Assembly (NCBI GenBank): GCA_018672315.1
Contig: CP076053.1
Coordinates: forward strand, 310,001-374,000
Reading direction: 5' to 3'
Source of the DNA: Nocardioidaceae bacterium
GTDB taxonomy: Bacteria; Actinomycetota; Actinomycetes; Propionibacteriales; Nocardioidaceae
Length of the DNA: 64,000 bases
Shown: piece by piece, positions 41,291 to 52,776 of the stretch
How the letters are laid out: every line of letters starts with the position of its first letter
Numbering within the stretch: position 1 is the first letter of the stretch
Position numbers and translations under genes: made by a program
Notes under the pieces: generated by a model
Databases searched by the model: none
Told to the model about the DNA's origin: nothing
What the model saw: the letters and a program-made list of their open reading frames with translations, nothing else

Positions 41291-41311
41291 CTCAGTCCAG
41301 GTAGTCGCGCA
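41291..41311. repeat. Left attachment site (attL), 21-bp direct repeat
   Basis: The sequence CTCAGTCCAGGTAGTCGCGC plus A is identical to 51276-51296. Flanking bases differ on both sides, so the repeat is exactly 21 bp. It marks the left junction of the element. Confidence 0.93.
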
Positions 41312-41405: not shown

Positions 41406-41882
41406 ATGACCACCTTGCACAACCATCCCGAACGCACCCGTGAGGCGATCTGCCCGCCGTTCTGTGCTGGCCACGACAGCCGGATGTACCAGTCCTGGGA
41501 GCCGGCGGTGCCGTCGCAGAACTACCCGGCCAGCCGACCCCACCACGCCCTTACCGAAGCACACGGGGGCGTCTCGGTCAGCGTCGGTGCGACCGAGCTG
41601 CCGGACGGCCTGCTGCCCGCGCGGGTGCAGGTCTACGTCGACGACTCGGCGGCCGAGGACATGCACCCGGCGGACGCGCACGCGCTCGGTCTGGCGATCG
41701 TCCGTGCGGGTGAGGCTGCCCGGCGCTGGAATGAGCGCCAGGCGTCATCGGTCACGGAAGGCAGCAGCATGCGCTTCGTGCGCCCGTCGTGGGTGACCGA
41801 TGAGCAGTGGGCCGCGATCGACGCGGCCATGTGCGCGCACTTCGCCGGCGCCGTCCAGCGGATGACCGAGGGCGACCAGTGA
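41406..41882 (+). CDS. DUF6907-like protein of the element, first copy
   Basis: A 158-residue soluble protein starting MTTLHNHPERTREA. It has a Cys-containing start (CPPFCAGHDSRM) and a second half with MHPADAHALGLAIVRAGEAARRW, a pattern found in actinobacterial mobile-element proteins annotated as DUF6907. The function is unknown. It is preceded by a motif near 41380 that recurs at the other end of the element. The next gene overlaps its stop as GTGA. Confidence 0.65.
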   Translation: MTTLHNHPERTREAICPPFCAGHDSRMYQSWEPAVPSQNYPASRPHHALTEAHGGVSVSVGATELPDGLLPARVQVYVDDSAAEDMHPADAHALGLAIVRAGEAARRWNERQASSVTEGSSMRFVRPSWVTDEQWAAIDAAMCAHFAGAVQRMTEGDQ

Positions 41883-42283
41883 GCGCCGCGGGTGACGCCT
41901 TGAATACGTTCATCGAGGACCGGGATCGGCTTCCCACGTCCTGCCCGAGCTGGTGCGCGGGTCAGCACGTGCAGGCGCTCGAGGAGGGCTGCCCGGTGGA
42001 AGACGCCTCGGTCCACACTGGCCCTGACTTCCCGGGACGCCTGCCTCGCGCGGTGAATGCTCACAGCGACGAGACGATCCGTGAGGGTGGGCAGTCGTAC
42101 GAGGTCGGCCTCACTGCGACTCCGACAAACCCGCACTGGTTTGGCCCGCCGATCGTCAAGCTTAGGTCGACTGGCACCAGGGACTGCCCCGGCTTCGTCG
42201 AGTTGCCGATGCTTCCCAGTGAGGCGCGGTCGCTTGCGGCACATCTGCTGCGGCTCGCCGAGCTCGCCGAGAGCGAGCGTTGA
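41879..42283 (+). CDS. DUF6907-like protein of the element, second copy
   Basis: A 134-residue protein starting VSAAGDALNTFIEDRDRL, with GTG 41879 overlapping the preceding stop. It contains CPSWCAGQHVQALEEGCPVED and a C-terminal SEARSLAAHLLRLAELAES helix, so it seems to be a paralogue of the previous gene. No enzymatic motif is seen. A strong terminator follows. Confidence 0.65.
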   Translation: MSAAGDALNTFIEDRDRLPTSCPSWCAGQHVQALEEGCPVEDASVHTGPDFPGRLPRAVNAHSDETIREGGQSYEVGLTATPTNPHWFGPPIVKLRSTGTRDCPGFVELPMLPSEARSLAAHLLRLAELAESER

Positions 42284-42304
42284 CCTGACCGACGGGCGTA
42301 CGAC

Positions 42305-42339
42305 GAACCGCCCCCCGATCCGTAGTCGGGGGGCGGTTC
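42305..42339. terminator. Terminator after the DUF6907-like pair
   Basis: GAACCGCCCCCCGA (42305-42318) pairs perfectly with TCGGGGGGCGGTTC (42326-42339) around a 7-base loop. It has a short T-containing tail (TGTGTCT) on the plus strand. Confidence 0.8.
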
Positions 42340-42358
42340 TGTGTCTAAGGTGCCGCAC

Positions 42359-42832
42359 ATGGAACTTCACAACTCGGACCTTCGAGACCTAGCCAAGTGG
42401 ATCAACCGCATCGGTGTCGATGCGCCAGGAGTCATCCCAAGGACGGTGCTCGCCCCCCTGGTCAGCATTCCGAGCGAGATTAAGCACCTGGCCGTCCTCA
42501 AATGCGAGCGCAGCAGCGGCTCGACATCGTGGTCAATCGTCGTCGCGTCGGACGATCACGTGGCGCACCTAGAGGGGACTACCAAGGACGGGTCCAACGA
42601 CAGTTCCGGCTTGACCGTACGCATCTGGGGACGGTCTCGCATTGCGCGCGTCTCGATGAACAACATCTACGCGCACGGGTCTGACCTCGACGGCGAGCGC
42701 CTGTGGGCGACGTGGACAGTGCACTTCACGGACGGCGAAACCCTTGCTCTGTCCTCAGAGGGTCACCCTTCGGCTACCGCCGTCGAGGCTGTGGAGAGCA
42801 TGGCCCTTCTGCTCATCGGACGGCAGTCTTGA
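42359..42832 (+). CDS. Unrecognised protein of the element (ORFan-like)
   Basis: 157 residues from ATG 42359 (MELHNSDLRDLAKW); an upstream GTG at 42341 would add six residues and would lie in the terminator tail. The protein looks soluble and beta-rich (KHLAVLKCERSSGSTSWSIVV, LWATWTVHFTDGETLALSSEG). No family is recognised. Base composition is visibly less GC-rich than its neighbours, which suggests a separate origin. It converges with the Ntn peptidase gene. Confidence 0.55.
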   Translation: MELHNSDLRDLAKWINRIGVDAPGVIPRTVLAPLVSIPSEIKHLAVLKCERSSGSTSWSIVVASDDHVAHLEGTTKDGSNDSSGLTVRIWGRSRIARVSMNNIYAHGSDLDGERLWATWTVHFTDGETLALSSEGHPSATAVEAVESMALLLIGRQS

Positions 42833-42834
42833 CC

Positions 42835-43716
42835 CTAGACTCGTTCGACCGCATGACACTCCCCTAGCGACTGTCCCGAGCCGCATAGGCACGGCTGGCC
42901 GGGGTCGACGCAGCATCCGAGCGCCGGTCGACCTGAGTCGCACCTGCACGGCCCGTGCAGGTTGTCGGGGTGCAGGCTGCGCGCGATCAGCTTGCGAAAG
43001 TCGGTGCCGCCCGGCTGGTCGCTGAAAGTGTGGACCGTGCGCGTGGCGATCCGACCGGGGCTGATCTTGGTCAGCAGGATGCGTCCGCCGATCGGGGCGT
43101 GCAGCAGCGGGTCGGTGGCGCGGTCGTGCCGGACGGCGAGGGCGAGGTCGGCCCACTCCTGCGGGGTGACCGTCGAGGGCATCGGCGGCTGCCGGCGCCA
43201 AACCCTGAGCCCGTCGTCCAGCGCCTGCCGGACGTCGGGGGCTGAGTACGCCTCGCCCGTGGAGAGCCACTGGTCCTCGATGGCGCTCGGTGCGTGGCGG
43301 ATCGGTGAGGGCGTGCAAAAGTGATCTTCGGTGCGGACGACCTCGGTGAAGTCGCTGGTGTCGTCGGCGTAGGCGGTCACGTAGCGCCCCGTGTCGTCGT
43401 CGGGGCCTGTGATGAACACGCCGCAGGAGTTGTCCCCTGACTCGCTCGGTGCCGCCCGCGCGGCGGCGAGGAAGGCGAAGGCGCAGAACTCGTCGAACCG
43501 CTCGTGCTCGCCGGTCGCGGCAGCTACGTGCATCCATCCAAGCACCTCGGCACCTCTGCGGACGTTGCCGTTGATCGAGACCGCGATCCCGCGGGCGGGG
43601 AACAGGTGCACCTTGTCGACGTTGGTCGAGACCTGCGTCATGTTGCGTGCGACCGCGAGGGTGTCAGAGCAGACGAGGGCGTGGTCTCCTTGGTGGGAGA
43701 CGGCGATCATGGTCAT
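42835..43716 (-). CDS. Predicted proteasome-like Ntn threonine peptidase with C-terminal SEC-C motifs
   Basis: The start MTMIAVSHQGDHALVCSDTLAV would leave Thr2 at the N-terminus after Met removal. Counting from it, Asp18 (CSDTL) and Lys35 (VDKVH) fall near the D17 and K33 positions of proteasome/HslV subunits, and SINGNVRRG matches the following glycine turn. The C-terminus has two cysteine motifs, CRCDSGRPALGCC and CLCGSGQSLGECH, the second a good SEC-C zinc site. The ATG (43716) overlaps the tape measure stop as ATGA. The family resemblance is by motif and spacing only. Confidence 0.65.
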   Translation of the reverse strand: MTMIAVSHQGDHALVCSDTLAVARNMTQVSTNVDKVHLFPARGIAVSINGNVRRGAEVLGWMHVAAATGEHERFDEFCAFAFLAAARAAPSESGDNSCGVFITGPDDDTGRYVTAYADDTSDFTEVVRTEDHFCTPSPIRHAPSAIEDQWLSTGEAYSAPDVRQALDDGLRVWRRQPPMPSTVTPQEWADLALAVRHDRATDPLLHAPIGGRILLTKISPGRIATRTVHTFSDQPGGTDFRKLIARSLHPDNLHGPCRCDSGRPALGCCVDPGQPCLCGSGQSLGECHAVERV

Positions 43717-45953
43717 GCGCGCAGTCCTTCCGGTAGATCGGTGGATACTGGCGGTAGCCCGAGGCGGGGCGATGCCAGGTCCAGCATGTCCTTGGTCAGG
43801 CTGCGGGTCTTGTTCTTCGCCTGCGCGTCGTCGAGGTCGGCCTTGGTCTCCACGTCGTCTGGGATCGCGAGCAGCCGCTCGGCGAGGTTCCCCGCCTTCT
43901 CTCGCGTGACGCCCATCTGCACGGCGGTCTTGGTGAACGCGGCTCGAGCACGCTCCTGTGCGGCGTCGGTGGCGCCGGCTGCCTCGGTCTGCCGGTTCCA
44001 TGCCGCTGCGAGCTGTGACAGCGCCTCGCGGTTGTTACGACCGGCGGCGGTGTTGGCGTCGACCCCGGCGGTGTTCTTCTGGGCCTGACGGGTCGCGTCC
44101 GCGAGCGCCTGCTTGTAGGCGGTGCGAGCGTCGAACGCGGCCAGTGCGGCGTTCGCGGTCTCCATCAGCGCAGCAGCCTCGCGACGGTTCGCAGCAGCAG
44201 CCTCTCGAGCTGCGTTGGCCTGATCTCGGGCGGCTTCTGAGAGCGCACGCTGACCCTCGACGGCCGGGAGGCTGCTCTCGCGCACGCCGTTGATCTGCCG
44301 TGCGTACAACTCCATCTCAGCGGCGGCTTCCTCGACGTCGGAGTCGCCGAGGATGCCCTCGACGAGGTTCTTGACCTCGCGGAAGTTGTCGACGCTGAAC
44401 TGGTCGAGGAACCACTTGAAGGGGTTGGACTCGACCGAGAGCTCCATGTCCTTGGACCAGTCACCGAAGCCCTCACGGGTGGCCCGCAGGATCTCCTGCT
44501 GATCCTTCAGCGCCATGCTCGCGTCCCGCGCAGCCTCGCCCAGACGGTCCAGGGACTCCCACATGTCGTCGTTGGAGTCCACGACGTCCATGCCGAAGCC
44601 GACCGCGGCACCGGCGGCCGCACCCCAGGGTCCGGCGAGGGTGCCGGCCAGACCGAGCATCGTGGTGTTGGTCAGCCCGGCCTGGTCGTCGAGATCGGAG
44701 AGCATCAGCGCCAGACCGCCGACCGCGGCGCCACCGAACGCGAGGCGCCCGAAAGACCGGCGCAGACGCTCGTTCGTGGTCGTGACGGTGCCGGCCTTCT
44801 GCCCCCAGGAGTCCAGGCCGGACCCGAACGCGGTGAGCGCGGCGGCGTCGGCCTTGAGACCCGTCAGGGCGCCCTTGGGGCGCTTGCTGAGCCCACCGAG
44901 CAGCCCGGCGAGGGCGGTGCCGTTCGCGGCGTTGTAGAGGGCCACGGCACGACTGACGGCAGAGAGACCCGCAGCGGCACCGATCAGGACGGGGCCGGCA
45001 TCCGAGCGCGCCACGGAGGCGAACGCATCGGCCAGACCCTCGATCACCGGCAGCACCGCAGCGCCGACCGGTGCGGCCGCCTCGGTGAAGGCGACGAACG
45101 CGTCGACAATCGCGCCGAGGGTGTCCATCACGTCCGGGCCGGTGCGCTGGATGTAGGACACGAACTCGGCGAAGTCCTCGGACTCCGAGAGCCCCGACGC
45201 CCACCGCTCGAAAGACTCTGACATCGAGACCATGCCGGCGGAGAAGTCGTCGGCCAGCGGGTCGAAGGCCATCATCATCTCGGCCAGACCGGTGCCGAAG
45301 TTGCCGAACGTGGCACCCATCGCCTCCAGCGTCGGACGGGCCTCGCGCTCGATGTAGTCGAAGAACTCCAGCCACGACCCCTCGGTGAACGCCTCACCGG
45401 TGTCTGCTGCGAGGTCGCCCAGCGTCCCGGCGATCGTGGCGACGATCCGCTCGAACTGCGGCAGCAGGGTCAGCATGTCGACGATGCCATCGCGCATGCC
45501 GGGGAACATGTTGTCCTGAGCGGTCAGGCGCAGCGTCGACAGCTCCTCCCCCGCGTTGGACAGGAACCGCACGAACGACGCGCCCTCGGCGGAGAAGCCC
45601 TGCAACTCCTCGCGCATCTTCTCGAGGTTCGCCTGCGTCGGTGCGAGCTTGTAGTCGTTCACGGCGCCGAGCGCGTCACCCATACCGGTGAAGGCCAGCG
45701 CCAGGGTGCCCACCGCACCCGCGGCAGCCCCGGTGCCGGCGGCGAGACCGGCCATGATCGGGACGGCCTGGGCGCCGAGCGGGACCAGCGCCGGACCGAG
45801 GGCTAGCGAGGTCTGCAAGACGTTGCTCAGGCGGGTGTCGGCGGAGTCCAGTTCCTTCACGAACGCCTTGGTGGAGGCAGAGGCGGTGAGCATGCCCCGC
45901 TGAAATGCCGAGACGTCGGCGCGGAGCTTGACGGAGACAGCGCGATCAACCAT
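43713..45953 (-). CDS. Phage tail tape measure protein
   Basis: A 746-residue protein starting MVDRAVSVKLRADVSAFQRGM, the typical beginning of tape measure proteins of actinobacteriophages. It has long Ala-rich helices, central hydrophobic segments (LVPLGAQAVPIMAGLAAGTGAAAGAVGTLALAF and GLAGTLAGPWGAAAGAAVGFGMDV), and C-terminal coiled Ala/Glu/Arg stretches. It would set tail length and act in DNA delivery. It is the only recognisable virion gene in the element. The ATG overlaps the small gene upstream by 8 bases, and the stop overlaps the Ntn peptidase gene. Confidence 0.85.
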   Translation of the reverse strand: MVDRAVSVKLRADVSAFQRGMLTASASTKAFVKELDSADTRLSNVLQTSLALGPALVPLGAQAVPIMAGLAAGTGAAAGAVGTLALAFTGMGDALGAVNDYKLAPTQANLEKMREELQGFSAEGASFVRFLSNAGEELSTLRLTAQDNMFPGMRDGIVDMLTLLPQFERIVATIAGTLGDLAADTGEAFTEGSWLEFFDYIEREARPTLEAMGATFGNFGTGLAEMMMAFDPLADDFSAGMVSMSESFERWASGLSESEDFAEFVSYIQRTGPDVMDTLGAIVDAFVAFTEAAAPVGAAVLPVIEGLADAFASVARSDAGPVLIGAAAGLSAVSRAVALYNAANGTALAGLLGGLSKRPKGALTGLKADAAALTAFGSGLDSWGQKAGTVTTTNERLRRSFGRLAFGGAAVGGLALMLSDLDDQAGLTNTTMLGLAGTLAGPWGAAAGAAVGFGMDVVDSNDDMWESLDRLGEAARDASMALKDQQEILRATREGFGDWSKDMELSVESNPFKWFLDQFSVDNFREVKNLVEGILGDSDVEEAAAEMELYARQINGVRESSLPAVEGQRALSEAARDQANAAREAAAANRREAAALMETANAALAAFDARTAYKQALADATRQAQKNTAGVDANTAAGRNNREALSQLAAAWNRQTEAAGATDAAQERARAAFTKTAVQMGVTREKAGNLAERLLAIPDDVETKADLDDAQAKNKTRSLTKDMLDLASPRLGLPPVSTDLPEGLRA

Positions 45954-46185
45954 TGATCAGACCTCCCTCGATCTCGACCATCGCGGCGAGGTTGTCCAGC
46001 GCCTGCCAGACGCTCAGGACGTCCAGCGCCTCGGCGTGCGCCGGGTCTGCCGGGTCGGCGTGCTGCTCGGTGTAGGCGACGGTCGTCAGTAGTCCCACGC
46101 GGAAGCCGCGCAGCGACTTCGTCGAGGCCAGTGCTGCGACCAGCTGGTCGGTTGCCGCTGTCACGGCGGGTGATGTGGTGGTCAT
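45946..46185 (-). CDS. Small protein upstream of the tape measure gene
   Basis: 79 residues from ATG 46185 (MTTTSPAVTAATDQLVAALA), with AAAGGAT upstream. The protein is helical, and in phage genomes the position directly before a tape measure gene is usually a tail assembly chaperone, but there is no sequence evidence for that here and no frameshift product is evident. It overlaps the tape measure start by 8 bases. The 200 bases upstream (46186-46385) hold no convincing gene. Confidence 0.65.
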   Translation of the reverse strand: MTTTSPAVTAATDQLVAALASTKSLRGFRVGLLTTVAYTEQHADPADPAHAEALDVLSVWQALDNLAAMVEIEGGLING

Positions 46186-46385: not shown

Positions 46386-46568
46386 TCATCGGGGAGGCGG
46401 CCGGGTCTCGTAGTCCTCCGCCTGACGCGCCGGCAGGGTGCCGATGCCATCGCGCGGGATGGACGCCGCGATCTCTCTCAGGCTCGGCTCGCGGTGCTCG
46501 GTCGGATCGGTGCCGCCTCGCAAGTCGATGCGCCAGCGTTCGCCGTCGTAGACGTGGGACTCAGGCAT
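46386..46568 (-). CDS. Small protein of the element, 60 residues
   Basis: Starts MPESHVYDGERWRIDLRGG at ATG 46568, which overlaps the last eight bases of the upstream gene. The protein is charged and soluble, with EPSLREIAASIPRDGIGTLP and ending RPPPR. No family is recognised. Coupling to its neighbour supports it being real. Confidence 0.6.
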   Translation of the reverse strand: MPESHVYDGERWRIDLRGGTDPTEHREPSLREIAASIPRDGIGTLPARQAEDYETRPPPR

Positions 46569-47400
46569 CGGTCGCCACCGCCTCGCGCCGCATGATCTCG
46601 GCAGCGTCGGCGTCGAGTGCGGATCGCCGGCTGTCGATGGTGCCCCAGTCGTGACGGCCTCCGACTCGGCGTACACCCTGTGCTGCTTCGGCCTGCCGTG
46701 CTGCTTCCTCCTGCGCCTCGCGGTACTGCTCCTGCGCCTGAGCCTCGGTGACCAGACGCGGTGCGGCACCCGCACGCAGAGACTGGATGAGCGTGGGCTG
46801 CCGCAGCTCGGGTGCGCCGTAGTAGAGGAAGTCATCACCCGCCCGGCCGTCCAGCACCTCGGCCAGTCGCAGTGCCTTGACGATCCGCAGCAGCGCCTCC
46901 CACCTCTCGTGGCACTGCACGACCGCGACCCATGCGGTGGCGGTGTCCTCGCCGGCGCTGATCGCGGCGTCGCCGTTGTCGATGTGACCGAGCGTGGCGT
47001 CGGCTTCACGCAGCCGCTCGATGATCCGCTCACCCTCGGGTGCCAGGACTCGGGTCACTAGCCCGTCACGCTCACGGGCCAGGGTCCGACCAGCCAGGGC
47101 GCCGGCACGGCGGGAGGCGTCGGCCAGGGCGCGTGAGGTCAGCCCACTGTGATCGGCGGCGTTGCGGGCCTTGACCAGCGCCTCGCGGGCCTTGGCCTCG
47201 GTGAGCTCGCCGCGTGCCAGCTTGGTGACGATGCCATCCCGTGCGCCCTCGAAGGTCTGGTCGATCGTCTGCGAGGCGACCTTAAGCGCGTCGGCACGGT
47301 CCAGGTAGGTCTCGACGGTGGCGTCGAGGTGCTGCGTCAGGTTGAGCGCCTCGAGCTGCGTCCACAGCCCTCGGGTCTCGCGGGTGTCCAGGTGCGTCAT
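46561..47400 (-). CDS. Unrecognised coiled protein of the element
   Basis: 279 residues from ATG 47400 (MTHLDTRETRGLWTQLEAL). The sequence is mainly helical with heptad-like stretches (EAQAQEQYREAQEEAARQAEAAQ, REALVKARNAADHSGL). There are no clear catalytic or membrane motifs. The ATG overlaps the whiB stop as ATGA. It could be a virion-related structural protein, but this is not established. Confidence 0.6.
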   Translation of the reverse strand: MTHLDTRETRGLWTQLEALNLTQHLDATVETYLDRADALKVASQTIDQTFEGARDGIVTKLARGELTEAKAREALVKARNAADHSGLTSRALADASRRAGALAGRTLARERDGLVTRVLAPEGERIIERLREADATLGHIDNGDAAISAGEDTATAWVAVVQCHERWEALLRIVKALRLAEVLDGRAGDDFLYYGAPELRQPTLIQSLRAGAAPRLVTEAQAQEQYREAQEEAARQAEAAQGVRRVGGRHDWGTIDSRRSALDADAAEIMRREAVATDA

Positions 47401-47717
47401 GCGGGTGTCCTCTCGGTGGTGGTCGTGCTCGTGGTGGCCTTTCGGCCGGACGGGTAGGTGGTGCGGTCGGTGCCGCCCCACACGCCCCATGTCTCGCCCT
47501 GCGCGTCAGCGAACCGAGCGCAGGCGTCGAGTGCGGGACAGGTGCGCCGGCAGACCTCGGCGGCGTGCTCCCGGTCGCCGCGGTCCTCGCCGATGAACGC
47601 CTCGGGATCAGCCGCGCACGGCGTCATCACTCCCTCGTCGTCCAGGACGATCAGTCGTGCAGTGAGGTCGTGCCAGGCGGTGAGCGCGCCGGGTGCGATC
47701 TGTCCTGCGGTGCTCAT
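47397..47717 (-). CDS. WhiB-family iron-sulfur transcriptional regulator
   Basis: 106 residues from ATG 47717 (MSTAGQIAPGALTAW). Four Cys residues follow the WhiB pattern: PCAADPEAFIGED, then CRRTCPALDAC and the WGVWGGTDRTTY stretch that resembles the GVWGG turn. Basic residues follow at the C-terminus. WhiB proteins bind a [4Fe-4S] cluster and regulate transcription with sigma factors. It is common on actinobacterial phages and mobile elements and may act here on host or element promoters. Confidence 0.9.
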   Translation of the reverse strand: MSTAGQIAPGALTAWHDLTARLIVLDDEGVMTPCAADPEAFIGEDRGDREHAAEVCRRTCPALDACARFADAQGETWGVWGGTDRTTYPSGRKATTSTTTTERTPA

Positions 47718-49021
47718 GCGACCGCCTCGCAGGAAGGGTGCGTGGTGGCGCCGTCGCCGAGGTCGCGCATCGGCTCGTGACAGCCGGCGCACCTAGCCGG
47801 TTCGGCCGTAGTTGCCGGTTTCGCCGGTTCACCTGGGAGGGCGAGACCGAACCGACGCAGCGGTGTCGCCAGGGTCGCGGCGGTGTACCCGCGCTCTCGG
47901 CCACCGGGGCGTGAGGTGAGCACCCGGTAGTTGCTCAGCATCCGTCCCATCCGCTGCGGCGTGAGTCGCTTGCCGTAGGTGGAGAAATCGCCCCACATGT
48001 CGGGATGCTCGGCGACGAGAGCGTCGATCAGCTCTTCCGCGGTGACGAACGTCTGCCCTGGCGGCCAGACCTCGGCGACGTGTTGCAGCAGTACGACGTG
48101 CGGCTTCTGGCTCACTGCACCCTCCTCGCGGGCGATCTCCTGCTCCTCGACGTCCTCGACGGACAGCCGTTCGACCAGCGCCGGCCAGCGACCGCCGGCG
48201 GCGACGGCGACGCGCATCAGCGGCGCCCAGCGCTCGCGGGCTCGGCCTCGGACCTTCTCGGGAAGGGTCGGCCGCGTCGTACGCACCTCGTCGCGGACGG
48301 TGTCGGCCCACGCGGCAAGCTGCTTGCCGATCCCGCGGGCCTCGTCCTCAATCCACTCCCAGTCCGACTCCTCGATCTGGTTCTCGTTGTCGGGCATCAG
48401 CAGCACCCGCAGCGAGCGAGAACGGGTGTCCTCGGGCAGGTTCGGCTGGTTGCCGGCCATAGCGACCGGGGAGAACGTCGACATCTCCGCGACGCGCCAG
48501 CCACCCTCCTTGGACGGCACCGACACCGGCCTGGTGGCGCCGCGCTTGTAGCCGGAGTTCAGGACGGCGATCAGGTCGCCGATGCCCTCCTTGTCAGGCG
48601 AGAGCGACCGGTCGGCCTCGTCGATGAGGATCGTCCGCAGTCCGGCGTCGAGCAGACGCACGATCATCGCGGGCGAGGAGACCGTGGCCATCTGCACCGG
48701 ATTGAGGCACAGACGCTCGAGGTGCTCAAGCGTTGTCGTCTTCCCACTCCCCGGCACGGGAGAGTCGATCAGCAGCCGCGGCGTCGAGTACGTCTCGACG
48801 GCGAGGTGCGTGTGCGCGGCCCACAGGGTCAGCAGATCCAGGTCGGAGTCCTGCACGGTCGAGACGAAGCGGCCGAACCACGCGCGGGTGTTGTTCAGTG
48901 CCCGTCCTGCGGCCCCCGCCCCTCTCTGGGGAACCGGCGAAACCGGTTGAACCGGCTGAACCGGCTGTGCTTGGAGCTCGGCCAGCTCGTCGAGGTAGTC
49001 CAGGGTGACGTCTTCGCTCAT
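47714..49021 (-). CDS. DUF3631 (helicase-like) P-loop ATPase of the element
   Basis: 435 residues from ATG 49021 (MSEDVTLDYLDELAEL). A P-loop motif (DSPVPGSGKTTTLEHLERL) and a Walker B-like LIDEAD (RTILIDEADRSLSPD) precede ARE-type residues (AMAGNQPNLPEDTRSRSLRVLL). This is the DUF3631 type linked to primase/helicase modules of actinobacterial elements. The C-terminus has a Cys-rich site (CAGCHEPMRDLGDG...C). It probably serves in element replication with the CHC2 protein encoded next to it. The ATG overlaps the CHC2 gene's stop. Confidence 0.85.
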   Translation of the reverse strand: MSEDVTLDYLDELAELQAQPVQPVQPVSPVPQRGAGAAGRALNNTRAWFGRFVSTVQDSDLDLLTLWAAHTHLAVETYSTPRLLIDSPVPGSGKTTTLEHLERLCLNPVQMATVSSPAMIVRLLDAGLRTILIDEADRSLSPDKEGIGDLIAVLNSGYKRGATRPVSVPSKEGGWRVAEMSTFSPVAMAGNQPNLPEDTRSRSLRVLLMPDNENQIEESDWEWIEDEARGIGKQLAAWADTVRDEVRTTRPTLPEKVRGRARERWAPLMRVAVAAGGRWPALVERLSVEDVEEQEIAREEGAVSQKPHVVLLQHVAEVWPPGQTFVTAEELIDALVAEHPDMWGDFSTYGKRLTPQRMGRMLSNYRVLTSRPGGRERGYTAATLATPLRRFGLALPGEPAKPATTAEPARCAGCHEPMRDLGDGATTHPSCEAVA

Positions 49022-49410
49022 GCCGCGTCCCCCGATCCGCCGGCGTTGCGCTCCTTGGCCTGCTCGGTCAGCATCCGAGCGAGCAGGTGATCCAGGCTCG
49101 GCCCGTCGTGCAGTCCGGCGTCCTTCAGCGCCTGCTCCCACGGCGTCCGCGTCGGAGGCGGCGCGTACGTCCGGTCCGTGCGCGGCTCGTCGAACAGGTC
49201 GCGGACGACGAGACCGAGGGCGTCCAGCACCTCGACGTCCTCGCAACCGGCGAAGCAGTAGACACTCACCCGGCCGTCCCCTCGACGAACCGACAGCGTC
49301 AGGCCGCGGGAGTTGTGGACTGGGCACTGTGCGCGGGCGCCCCCCTTGGTCAGCTTCACGTCGACACCGGCGGCCCGGAGCGAGGCGACGATGGTCTCGA
49401 AAGCGGTCAT
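49018..49410 (-). CDS. CHC2 zinc-finger (primase-like) protein of the element
   Basis: A 130-residue protein with an N-terminal zinc site of the primase CHC2 type: CPVHNSRGLTLSVRRGDGRVSVYCFAGC. No TOPRIM catalytic domain is visible, so on its own it is not a complete primase. It is followed directly by the DUF3631 ATPase, and the two genes overlap. Together they are the likely DNA replication functions. Confidence 0.78.
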   Translation of the reverse strand: MTAFETIVASLRAAGVDVKLTKGGARAQCPVHNSRGLTLSVRRGDGRVSVYCFAGCEDVEVLDALGLVVRDLFDEPRTDRTYAPPPTRTPWEQALKDAGLHDGPSLDHLLARMLTEQAKERNAGGSGDAA

Positions 49411-50227: not shown

Positions 50228-51169
50228 CTAGAGGTCGCCCAGGTTCAGACGCCGGGCCTCCTCGGCCGCACGGGCGGATGCCTGGGCCTTGGTGTAGCGC
50301 ATCAGCATGTCGGGCCGGGTCCATCCGGCGACGGCCATCAGACCGGTCTCCGATCCGCCCTTCTCGAGCCAGCGGTGCGCCGCGGTGTGTCGCAGGCGGT
50401 GCGGGTGGAAGCCGGCGACCCCGGCCGCGTCGGCGCGGTCGCGGAAGGACTTGTGCAGGGCGTCGTAGGAGAACCGCTTGCCGCGGTCCCCCAGCCACAG
50501 GACGTCGGAATCAGCGAGCCGGTGCGTACGACGCGCGCGCAGGTAGCGGTCGATCGCAGCGACGATCTCGGGGCCGACCGGGACGACGCGCCCCTTGCCT
50601 CCCTTGCCGCGCTCGACGGTGATCAGCCCGTCGGCGAGGTTCAGCGCCGGCACGGTGAGCGCCACGGCCTCCCCGGCGCGCATGCCGGTCTCGAACATCA
50701 GCCGTAGCAGTGCCTCGTCGCGACGGTGACGCAACGCGACGTTGGCAGACGTGCCGCGCTCGACGGTGCAGGTCTTGAGCAGCCGGCGCATCTCGTCCTC
50801 ACTCAGCGGCTCGACCACCTGCTCGTCCAACTTGGGTGACTTCACGCCGAGGAACGGGTCGACGGCGATCTCGTCCTCGTCGGTCAGCCACGCCGAGAAC
50901 CGTCGGGCGGCCAGTTGCCGGGCGCGCGCGGTCGCCGCTGCCGCGCCCTCATCCAGCAGGTGCGCGGTCCAGAGGTTCAGGCTCGACTTCGCCAGCGGCG
51001 GCACGGCGTTGCTCTCGCACCACGCCAGGTACATCCGCAAGCCGTCGCCGTAGGTCTTGAGCGTCTGCGGACTCTTCCGCTCAGCGCGCAGGGCCAGTTG
51101 CCAGGACTCCCCCAGGCCGCGCAGCTCGTCCACGGAGAGCGCGGCTGGAGGGGTCGACACGCGACTCAC
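50228..51169 (-). CDS. Tyrosine recombinase (integrase) of the element
   Basis: 313 residues with an N-terminal SAM-like core-binding domain (KSPQTLKTYGDGLRMYLAWC) and a C-terminal catalytic domain. The catalytic set is visible: R164 (TGMRAGEA), the K-containing beta hairpin (GKGGKGRVV), HxxR at H257-R260 (HPHRLRHTAAH) and nucleophile Y292 (MLMRYTKAQ). It would insert the element into the hrdB 3' end using the 21-bp repeat. GTG 51169 is assumed; GTG 51160 is an alternative. The gene ends 1.05 kb from the right junction. Confidence 0.93.
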   Translation of the reverse strand: MSRVSTPPAALSVDELRGLGESWQLALRAERKSPQTLKTYGDGLRMYLAWCESNAVPPLAKSSLNLWTAHLLDEGAAAATARARQLAARRFSAWLTDEDEIAVDPFLGVKSPKLDEQVVEPLSEDEMRRLLKTCTVERGTSANVALRHRRDEALLRLMFETGMRAGEAVALTVPALNLADGLITVERGKGGKGRVVPVGPEIVAAIDRYLRARRTHRLADSDVLWLGDRGKRFSYDALHKSFRDRADAAGVAGFHPHRLRHTAAHRWLEKGGSETGLMAVAGWTRPDMLMRYTKAQASARAAEEARRLNLGDL

Positions 51170-51276
51170 CCTAGCCGATATCTGGACTAAGAGCGCTGTA
51201 CGGGTGTAGCGTGCGTGTCGCCAGGCACCGGAAACCGGGTCTGGCCTGCAGTTTCACCCGCTAGGCGCTACTAGCC

Positions 51277-52776
<1,500 letters not shown>

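Follow-up and report, generated by a model that had tools for sequence, protein, structure and literature searches.

Organization of the locus

The window, i.e. the 64,000-nucleotide stretch of contig CP076053.1 from a Nocardioidaceae bacterium that was analysed, contains an integrative element of about 10 kb (10.0 kb), which lies at the 3' end of a sigma-70 gene and is flanked by an exact 21-bp direct repeat. The GC content around the element is about 0.67-0.70, compared with mostly 0.72-0.75 in the flanking DNA. The features that were assigned, with the basis for each, are as follows.

41291-41311, no strand: distal att copy, CTCAGTCCAGGTAGTCGCGCA (exact 21-bp direct repeat)
42835-43716, minus strand: 293-residue protein, in which residues 1 to about 250 form a proteasome-like Ntn hydrolase domain, followed by two SEC-C motifs (sequence, predicted fold, homologue alignment)
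42853-42891, minus strand: second SEC-C type motif, CLC-x8-CH, residues 276-288 (Pfam SEC-C E 0.0016, below the cut-off; cysteines invariant)
42910-42948, minus strand: first SEC-C type motif, CRC-x8-CC, residues 257-269 (sequence; cysteines invariant)
43612-43614, minus strand: Lys35 codon, proteasome Lys33 position (invariant in 6/6)
43663-43665, minus strand: Asp18 codon, proteasome Asp17 position (invariant in 6/6)
43711-43713, minus strand: Thr2 codon, predicted nucleophile, Thr1 once Met is removed (sequence; invariant in 6/6; homologue model versus Anbu)
43713-45953, minus strand: tape measure protein (TMP) gene, 746 residues, its stop overlapping the start of the Ntn hydrolase ORF (PHROG; identity to a prophage TMP)
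45946-46185, minus strand: small ORF directly upstream of the TMP gene (no match)
46561-47400, minus strand: 279-residue protein (weak match to a PHROG of unknown function only)
47397-47717, minus strand: WhiB-type protein (Pfam Whib E 2e-10)
47714-48856, minus strand: DUF3631 protein, probable replication helicase/primase part (DUF3631 E 4.9e-20)
49018-49410, minus strand: protein with a DNA-primase-like N-terminal zinc domain (PHROG DNA primase E 2.1e-10)
50228-51133, minus strand: tyrosine integrase (Pfam Phage_integrase E 9.9e-31)
51276-51296, no strand: proximal att copy, where the sigma-70 gene (51277-52776, minus strand) has its 3' end (exact 21-bp direct repeat)

The plus-strand reading across 42835-43716 is full of stops, and the coding frame of the hydrolase runs on the minus strand from 43716 to 42835. 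Its start codon was originally described as overlapping the tape measure stop, and this is correct: the two genes share ATGA, with the ATG at 43716-43714 overlapping the TGA of the 746-residue ORF. Small plus-strand ORFs, possibly cargo, are present between the distal att copy and the hydrolase gene (41406-42832).

No head genes were recognized among the ORFs of the element by Pfam or PHROG, and the whole host genome gave no match to the PF04860 portal, PF03354 or PF03237 terminase, or PF05065 capsid families. As no head genes were found, assignment as an ordinary prophage was rejected. A tail assembly chaperone was likewise not recognized by PHROG or Pfam among the ORFs of the element, which include small unmatched ones. 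Nor was a small terminase detected in it, so that its own mobility is less certain.

The predicted Ntn hydrolase family and its sequence motifs

Five homologues were found, with 26-31% identity to the window protein; the six proteins are 26-42% identical among themselves and range in length from 293 to 347 residues. When the window protein alone was used as the query, no homologue was returned from phages, viral contigs, GTDB contigs or 98 related genomes; the five emerged from larger searches, covering whole genomes or using profiles. A phylum-wide six-frame search identified the protein of genome G566, a full-length relative (36%, E 1.2e-14), profile searches matched proteins of G739 (2.6e-31), G213 (2.4e-35) and G239 (2.1e-28), and the fifth, from Blastococcus sp. 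MG754426, came from GTDB contigs. The G213 protein is 100% identical to one in Nocardioides psychrotolerans CGMCC 1.11156, and identical copies of the G739 and N. psychrotolerans proteins are found in IMG/VR, on viral contigs 19.3 and 16.5 kb long, respectively. Searches of phage records with three other family members gave SEC-C or marginal matches only, and no homologue was found in plasmids.

The initial annotation placed Thr2 (following Met removal), Asp18 and Lys35 at the T1/D17/K33 spacing of proteasome and HslV subunits, with a glycine turn where expected. The three residues are present as claimed and all five homologues keep them; the glycine is also there, as Gly50 in the window protein, the column of the oxyanion-hole glycine (Gly47) being Gly in five of the six proteins and Ala in that of G739. 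The alignment contains 30 invariant columns, including Thr2, Asp18, Lys35 and the six shared SEC-C cysteines. Within the N domain, 21 of 211 ungapped columns are invariant, and the chance that three preset columns all are is 0.0009.

Two C-terminal cysteine motifs had been noted, of which one was assigned to the SEC-C type; both motifs are indeed present, but both are of that type, the pattern CxC-x8-C[HC] occurring twice. The window protein scores 18.7 bits against SEC-C (PF02810), compared with a cut-off of 20.4, which is exceeded by homologues (47.7 bits in one, 27.1 in another). The fused SEC-C form, for which a search was originally suggested, is present in the five homologues, with the shared cysteines of both motifs. 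None of five members matched Pfam Proteasome (PF00227), even at E 10, and an HslV-family PHROG was matched only at E 0.47. We infer that the PADLOC and NCBIfam matches arise from the SEC-C part.

Predicted fold

AlphaFold gave a weak model for the window protein (pLDDT 44, pTM 0.42) and a better one for the Blastococcus homologue (pLDDT 67, pTM 0.64, with parts of the core above 90); the alignments underlying the models were shallow, comprising 3 and 4 sequences. Both models show the alpha-beta-beta-alpha Ntn fold, and the 50 PDB matches listed by Foldseek for each are all proteasome structures, with a probability of 1.00. Structural comparison, proposed at the outset for HslV and Anbu, gave proteasome and Anbu subunits as the best matches: by VIA, the window model scored Z 13.8 (rmsd 3.6, 171 aligned) over residues 1-230, and for the Blastococcus model Anbu tied for best (Z 15.2, rmsd 3.3, 184 residues). 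Residues 2-244 of the latter align to residues 1-216 of Anbu, with residue 2, the predicted nucleophile, falling on Anbu residue 1. Nothing significant was matched in a library of viral structure predictions.

Judging from these models, the product of the ORF almost certainly has a proteasome-like fold. Neither of the two outcomes named beforehand as refuting the assignment, a model devoid of the Ntn sandwich or homologues that have lost Thr, Asp and Lys, was observed. By sequence together with predicted fold it is a predicted T1-type Ntn hydrolase, albeit one that by score lies outside Pfam Proteasome. The N-terminal domain of 4/5 members also matches PHROG 13702 (best 5e-10), labelled 'terminase large subunit'; a role as a packaging ATPase was rejected because an Ntn fold is predicted and the phrog_13702 profile is just 218 positions long. 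The label of phrog_13702 appears mistaken, and the phage proteins grouped in it may consist of an Ntn domain on its own.

The tape measure partner

The 746-residue protein matches three PHROG tape measure families (best 7.6e-10). Aligned over 769 columns, it shows 40% identity to the TMP of the conventional prophage tail cluster at locus L032; it lacks the last ~130 residues of that relative. The proposed coupling of the hydrolase gene to a tape measure gene is real, the former lying directly 3' of the latter in 6/6 elements; four junctions overlap as ATGA or GTGA, the G739 frames overlap by 7 nt, and those of G566 are separated by 5 nt. The setting is an integrative element without recognizable head genes, most likely a phage satellite, rather than a complete prophage tail cluster.

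The TMPs are of two core types, without detectable full-length similarity between them. One comprises the window and G239 TMPs, which resemble the L032 prophage TMP; the second, with PhageMin_Tail, comprises the other four. The pairing of TMP and hydrolase is thus not one inherited block. Furthermore, the hydrolase tree joins G239 with N. psychrotolerans (97/95), across the divide between core types, implying that parts have been exchanged and weakening the case for strict recognition of the TMP core by the enzyme. The G239 and N. psychrotolerans TMPs do have a common C-terminal module (37% over 173 columns). On sequence grounds, the target of the enzyme would be either the C-terminal end of the TMP or something outside the TMP core.

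The TMPs are mosaics (window 43713-45953; L102 7455-10004; L033 9015-11357), that of N. psychrotolerans combining a PhageMin_Tail core with a C-terminal module as in the window and G239. The idea that all the satellite TMPs have lost the usual C terminus (motif NGE[YF]V) was dropped, since that motif is also missing from most of the conventional TMP loci fetched, and the end of the Blastococcus TMP is unlike that of the others.

Related elements

Three of the elements, i.e. those of the window, G566 and G239, have an integrase and flanking repeats at the 3' end of a conserved gene. The G566 element (14.1 kb) is flanked by a 60-bp repeat (92%) of a DUF72 gene end, and that of G239 (13.9 kb) lies at the 3' end of an RNase P RNA gene (L033 4435-4473 and 18311-18349). 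Small terminases were recognized as Terminase_4 in G566 and Blastococcus and by PHROG in G739, with a weak candidate in N. psychrotolerans and none recognized in the G239 element; a small terminase is not found in every satellite. The six host genomes yielded no TerL_ATPase (PF03354) match, and the six elements no match to HK97-type capsid (PF05065). Among the host genomes, an HK97-type capsid gene is present only in G239, about 2.7 Mb from the element in linear coordinates.

The elements are very probably of satellite type, and the TMP and Ntn hydrolase genes constitute a cassette of putative actinobacterial phage satellites, their lifestyle being deduced from gene content.

WhiB-type proteins are encoded in three elements (window 47397-47717; L072 14180-14644; L094 8459-8899). 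Contig C32 of G213 (N. psychrotolerans), at about 22.7-37.7 kb, has a weak terminase-like match together with a long TMP frame, which make it a candidate resident helper prophage.

Possible roles of the TMP-hydrolase pair

The reading that we prefer, to which we assign a probability of about 0.45, is that the Ntn hydrolase with its SEC-C pair is encoded by the gene that follows TMP in a two-gene tail cassette and is a TMP-cutting enzyme acting in a satellite. A helper phage would supply the heads and most tail proteins, with the satellite making its own TMP and, via the overlapping reading frame, the Ntn enzyme; removal of Met would expose Thr1, the SEC-C fingers would dock a partner, and the enzyme would cut a TMP, either trimming that of the satellite or clearing that of the helper. 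The outcome would be tails built on the satellite TMP. The parts of this proposal differ in strength. Some function tied to tail assembly is probable, by analogy with satellites that manipulate the tails of their helpers. That the substrate is a TMP is suggested by the gene pairing, at slightly less than even odds, and that it is specifically the helper TMP which is cleared seems rather unlikely.

It may instead be that the enzyme is a helper-interference or defence protease with a target other than a TMP, e.g. a tail chaperone, a capsid protein or a host factor, in which case adjacency to the TMP gene would reflect timed co-expression. The association of one hydrolase family with two TMP core types, including the pairing of G239 with N. 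psychrotolerans despite their differing cores, is consistent with this, as is the carriage of tail-assembly inhibitors by satellites and prophages (Tai, PMC11364771; Rta, PMC12987554). Against it, the gene stands directly after the TMP gene in all six elements, and the C-terminal module that the G239 and N. psychrotolerans TMPs have in common would also fit a target at the TMP end; overall, this alternative is fairly unlikely.

A structural tail or virion protein that cuts little or nothing in vivo and uses its proteasome-like fold and zinc motifs for assembly, whether as a chaperone, at the tail tip or as an ejected protein, would suit the gene position, because in siphophages tail-tip genes normally lie after the TMP gene, and also the SEC-C motifs, which are commonly protein-binding zinc modules. 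The conservation data argue otherwise: none of the catalytic residues Thr, Asp and Lys varies among proteins of 26-42% identity in which about nine N-domain columns in ten do, a pattern that points to retained chemistry. A structural role is distinctly unlikely. A Thr/Asp/Lys site also fits other Ntn chemistry, including ligation. Connectase, which is homologous to the proteasome, acts as a ligase (PMC8665760), and an enzyme of that kind could join a TMP or other tail protein to a partner. Nothing specific ties the Ntn-SEC-C family to connectase, however, and the secondary structure prediction shows no sign of the two-helix insertion that follows strand 3 in connectase, so that a ligase or transpeptidase is very unlikely. 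Finally, it is highly improbable that the TMP and hydrolase genes are functionless leftovers of a decayed prophage, as the absence of head and small terminase genes and the shortened TMP of the window element might suggest, since in six distantly related elements both ORFs of the pair remain intact, active site included.

Comparison with known systems

The TMP-cutting reading has its closest precedent in the PLE satellites of Vibrio cholerae, which, as described in 2026, build chimeric tails on helper components using their own TMP (PMC12987554). Loss of the PLE TMP gene sharply cuts transfer, and the manipulation of phage tail assembly has been called enigmatic (PMC12987554). The similarity lies in the satellite-encoded TMP; chimeric tails and a tail-reprogramming peptidase may, by analogy, be proposed for the actinobacterial elements. 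By contrast, in PLE the partner of the TMP is a tail assembly chaperone rather than an Ntn hydrolase, the helper is contractile-tailed, and the phylum is different.

Capsid-forming PICIs and the Streptomyces Mulch/Flayer satellites are likewise integrative or satellite elements reliant on helper tails (PMC10690885), but they encode capsid and packaging genes, of which the elements described here have none recognizable except small terminases. Satellite TMP genes as such have been noted before, among them predicted tmp genes in some cf-PICIs. In conventional actinobacterial prophages, as at L032, a TMP similar to that of the window is followed by ordinary distal tail genes, with no Ntn gene there. 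What is new is the recurrent TMP-Ntn-SEC-C cassette in actinobacterial elements. The broader proposal, that these are a new actinobacterial satellite family with a dedicated proteasome-like protease and their own TMP, taking over helper tail assembly by destruction of the helper TMP or maturation of their own, is somewhat doubtful.

With respect to the enzyme, the family resembles the T1 peptidases Anbu, HslV and proteasome beta subunits in its predicted alpha-beta-beta-alpha fold, in the Thr (after Met)-Asp17-Lys33 arrangement and in having no long propeptide. It differs from them in lacking Pfam Proteasome similarity, in its two added SEC-C motifs and in its TMP linkage in satellite-like elements. 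Divergent prokaryotic proteasome homologues, termed PPH, RPC, AAH and DAH, were described by Fuchs et al. in 2021, with PPH and AAH occurring in phages, RPC and DAH having extra C-terminal domains, and RPC being reported from proteobacteria (PMC8665760). PPH is ~140 residues long, and SEC-C is not mentioned in the text of that paper (PMC8665760). The window family resembles these in being a divergent set of prokaryotic proteasome-like proteins, but at 293-347 residues its members do not fit PPH. A literature search found no paper joining SEC-C, proteasome and phage.

The family is a divergent branch newly added to the proteasome superfamily, distinguished by SEC-C motifs and missed by standard profiles. 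An enzyme gene coupled to a satellite-like TMP gene is a concrete, testable candidate factor for tail reprogramming in a phylum other than that of PLE, and the TMP-Ntn pairing in six distantly related elements may help to explain how the tail of another virus is rebuilt. If the proposed role is correct, proteolysis would be the means by which satellites with a TMP of their own prevail over that of the helper. The host of the window element also has its own PrcB/PrcA-type 20S proteasome genes (L073 1491-3344; G000 C1 about 3362490-3364343), the PrcB-like product of which matches Pfam Proteasome at 1.5e-36.
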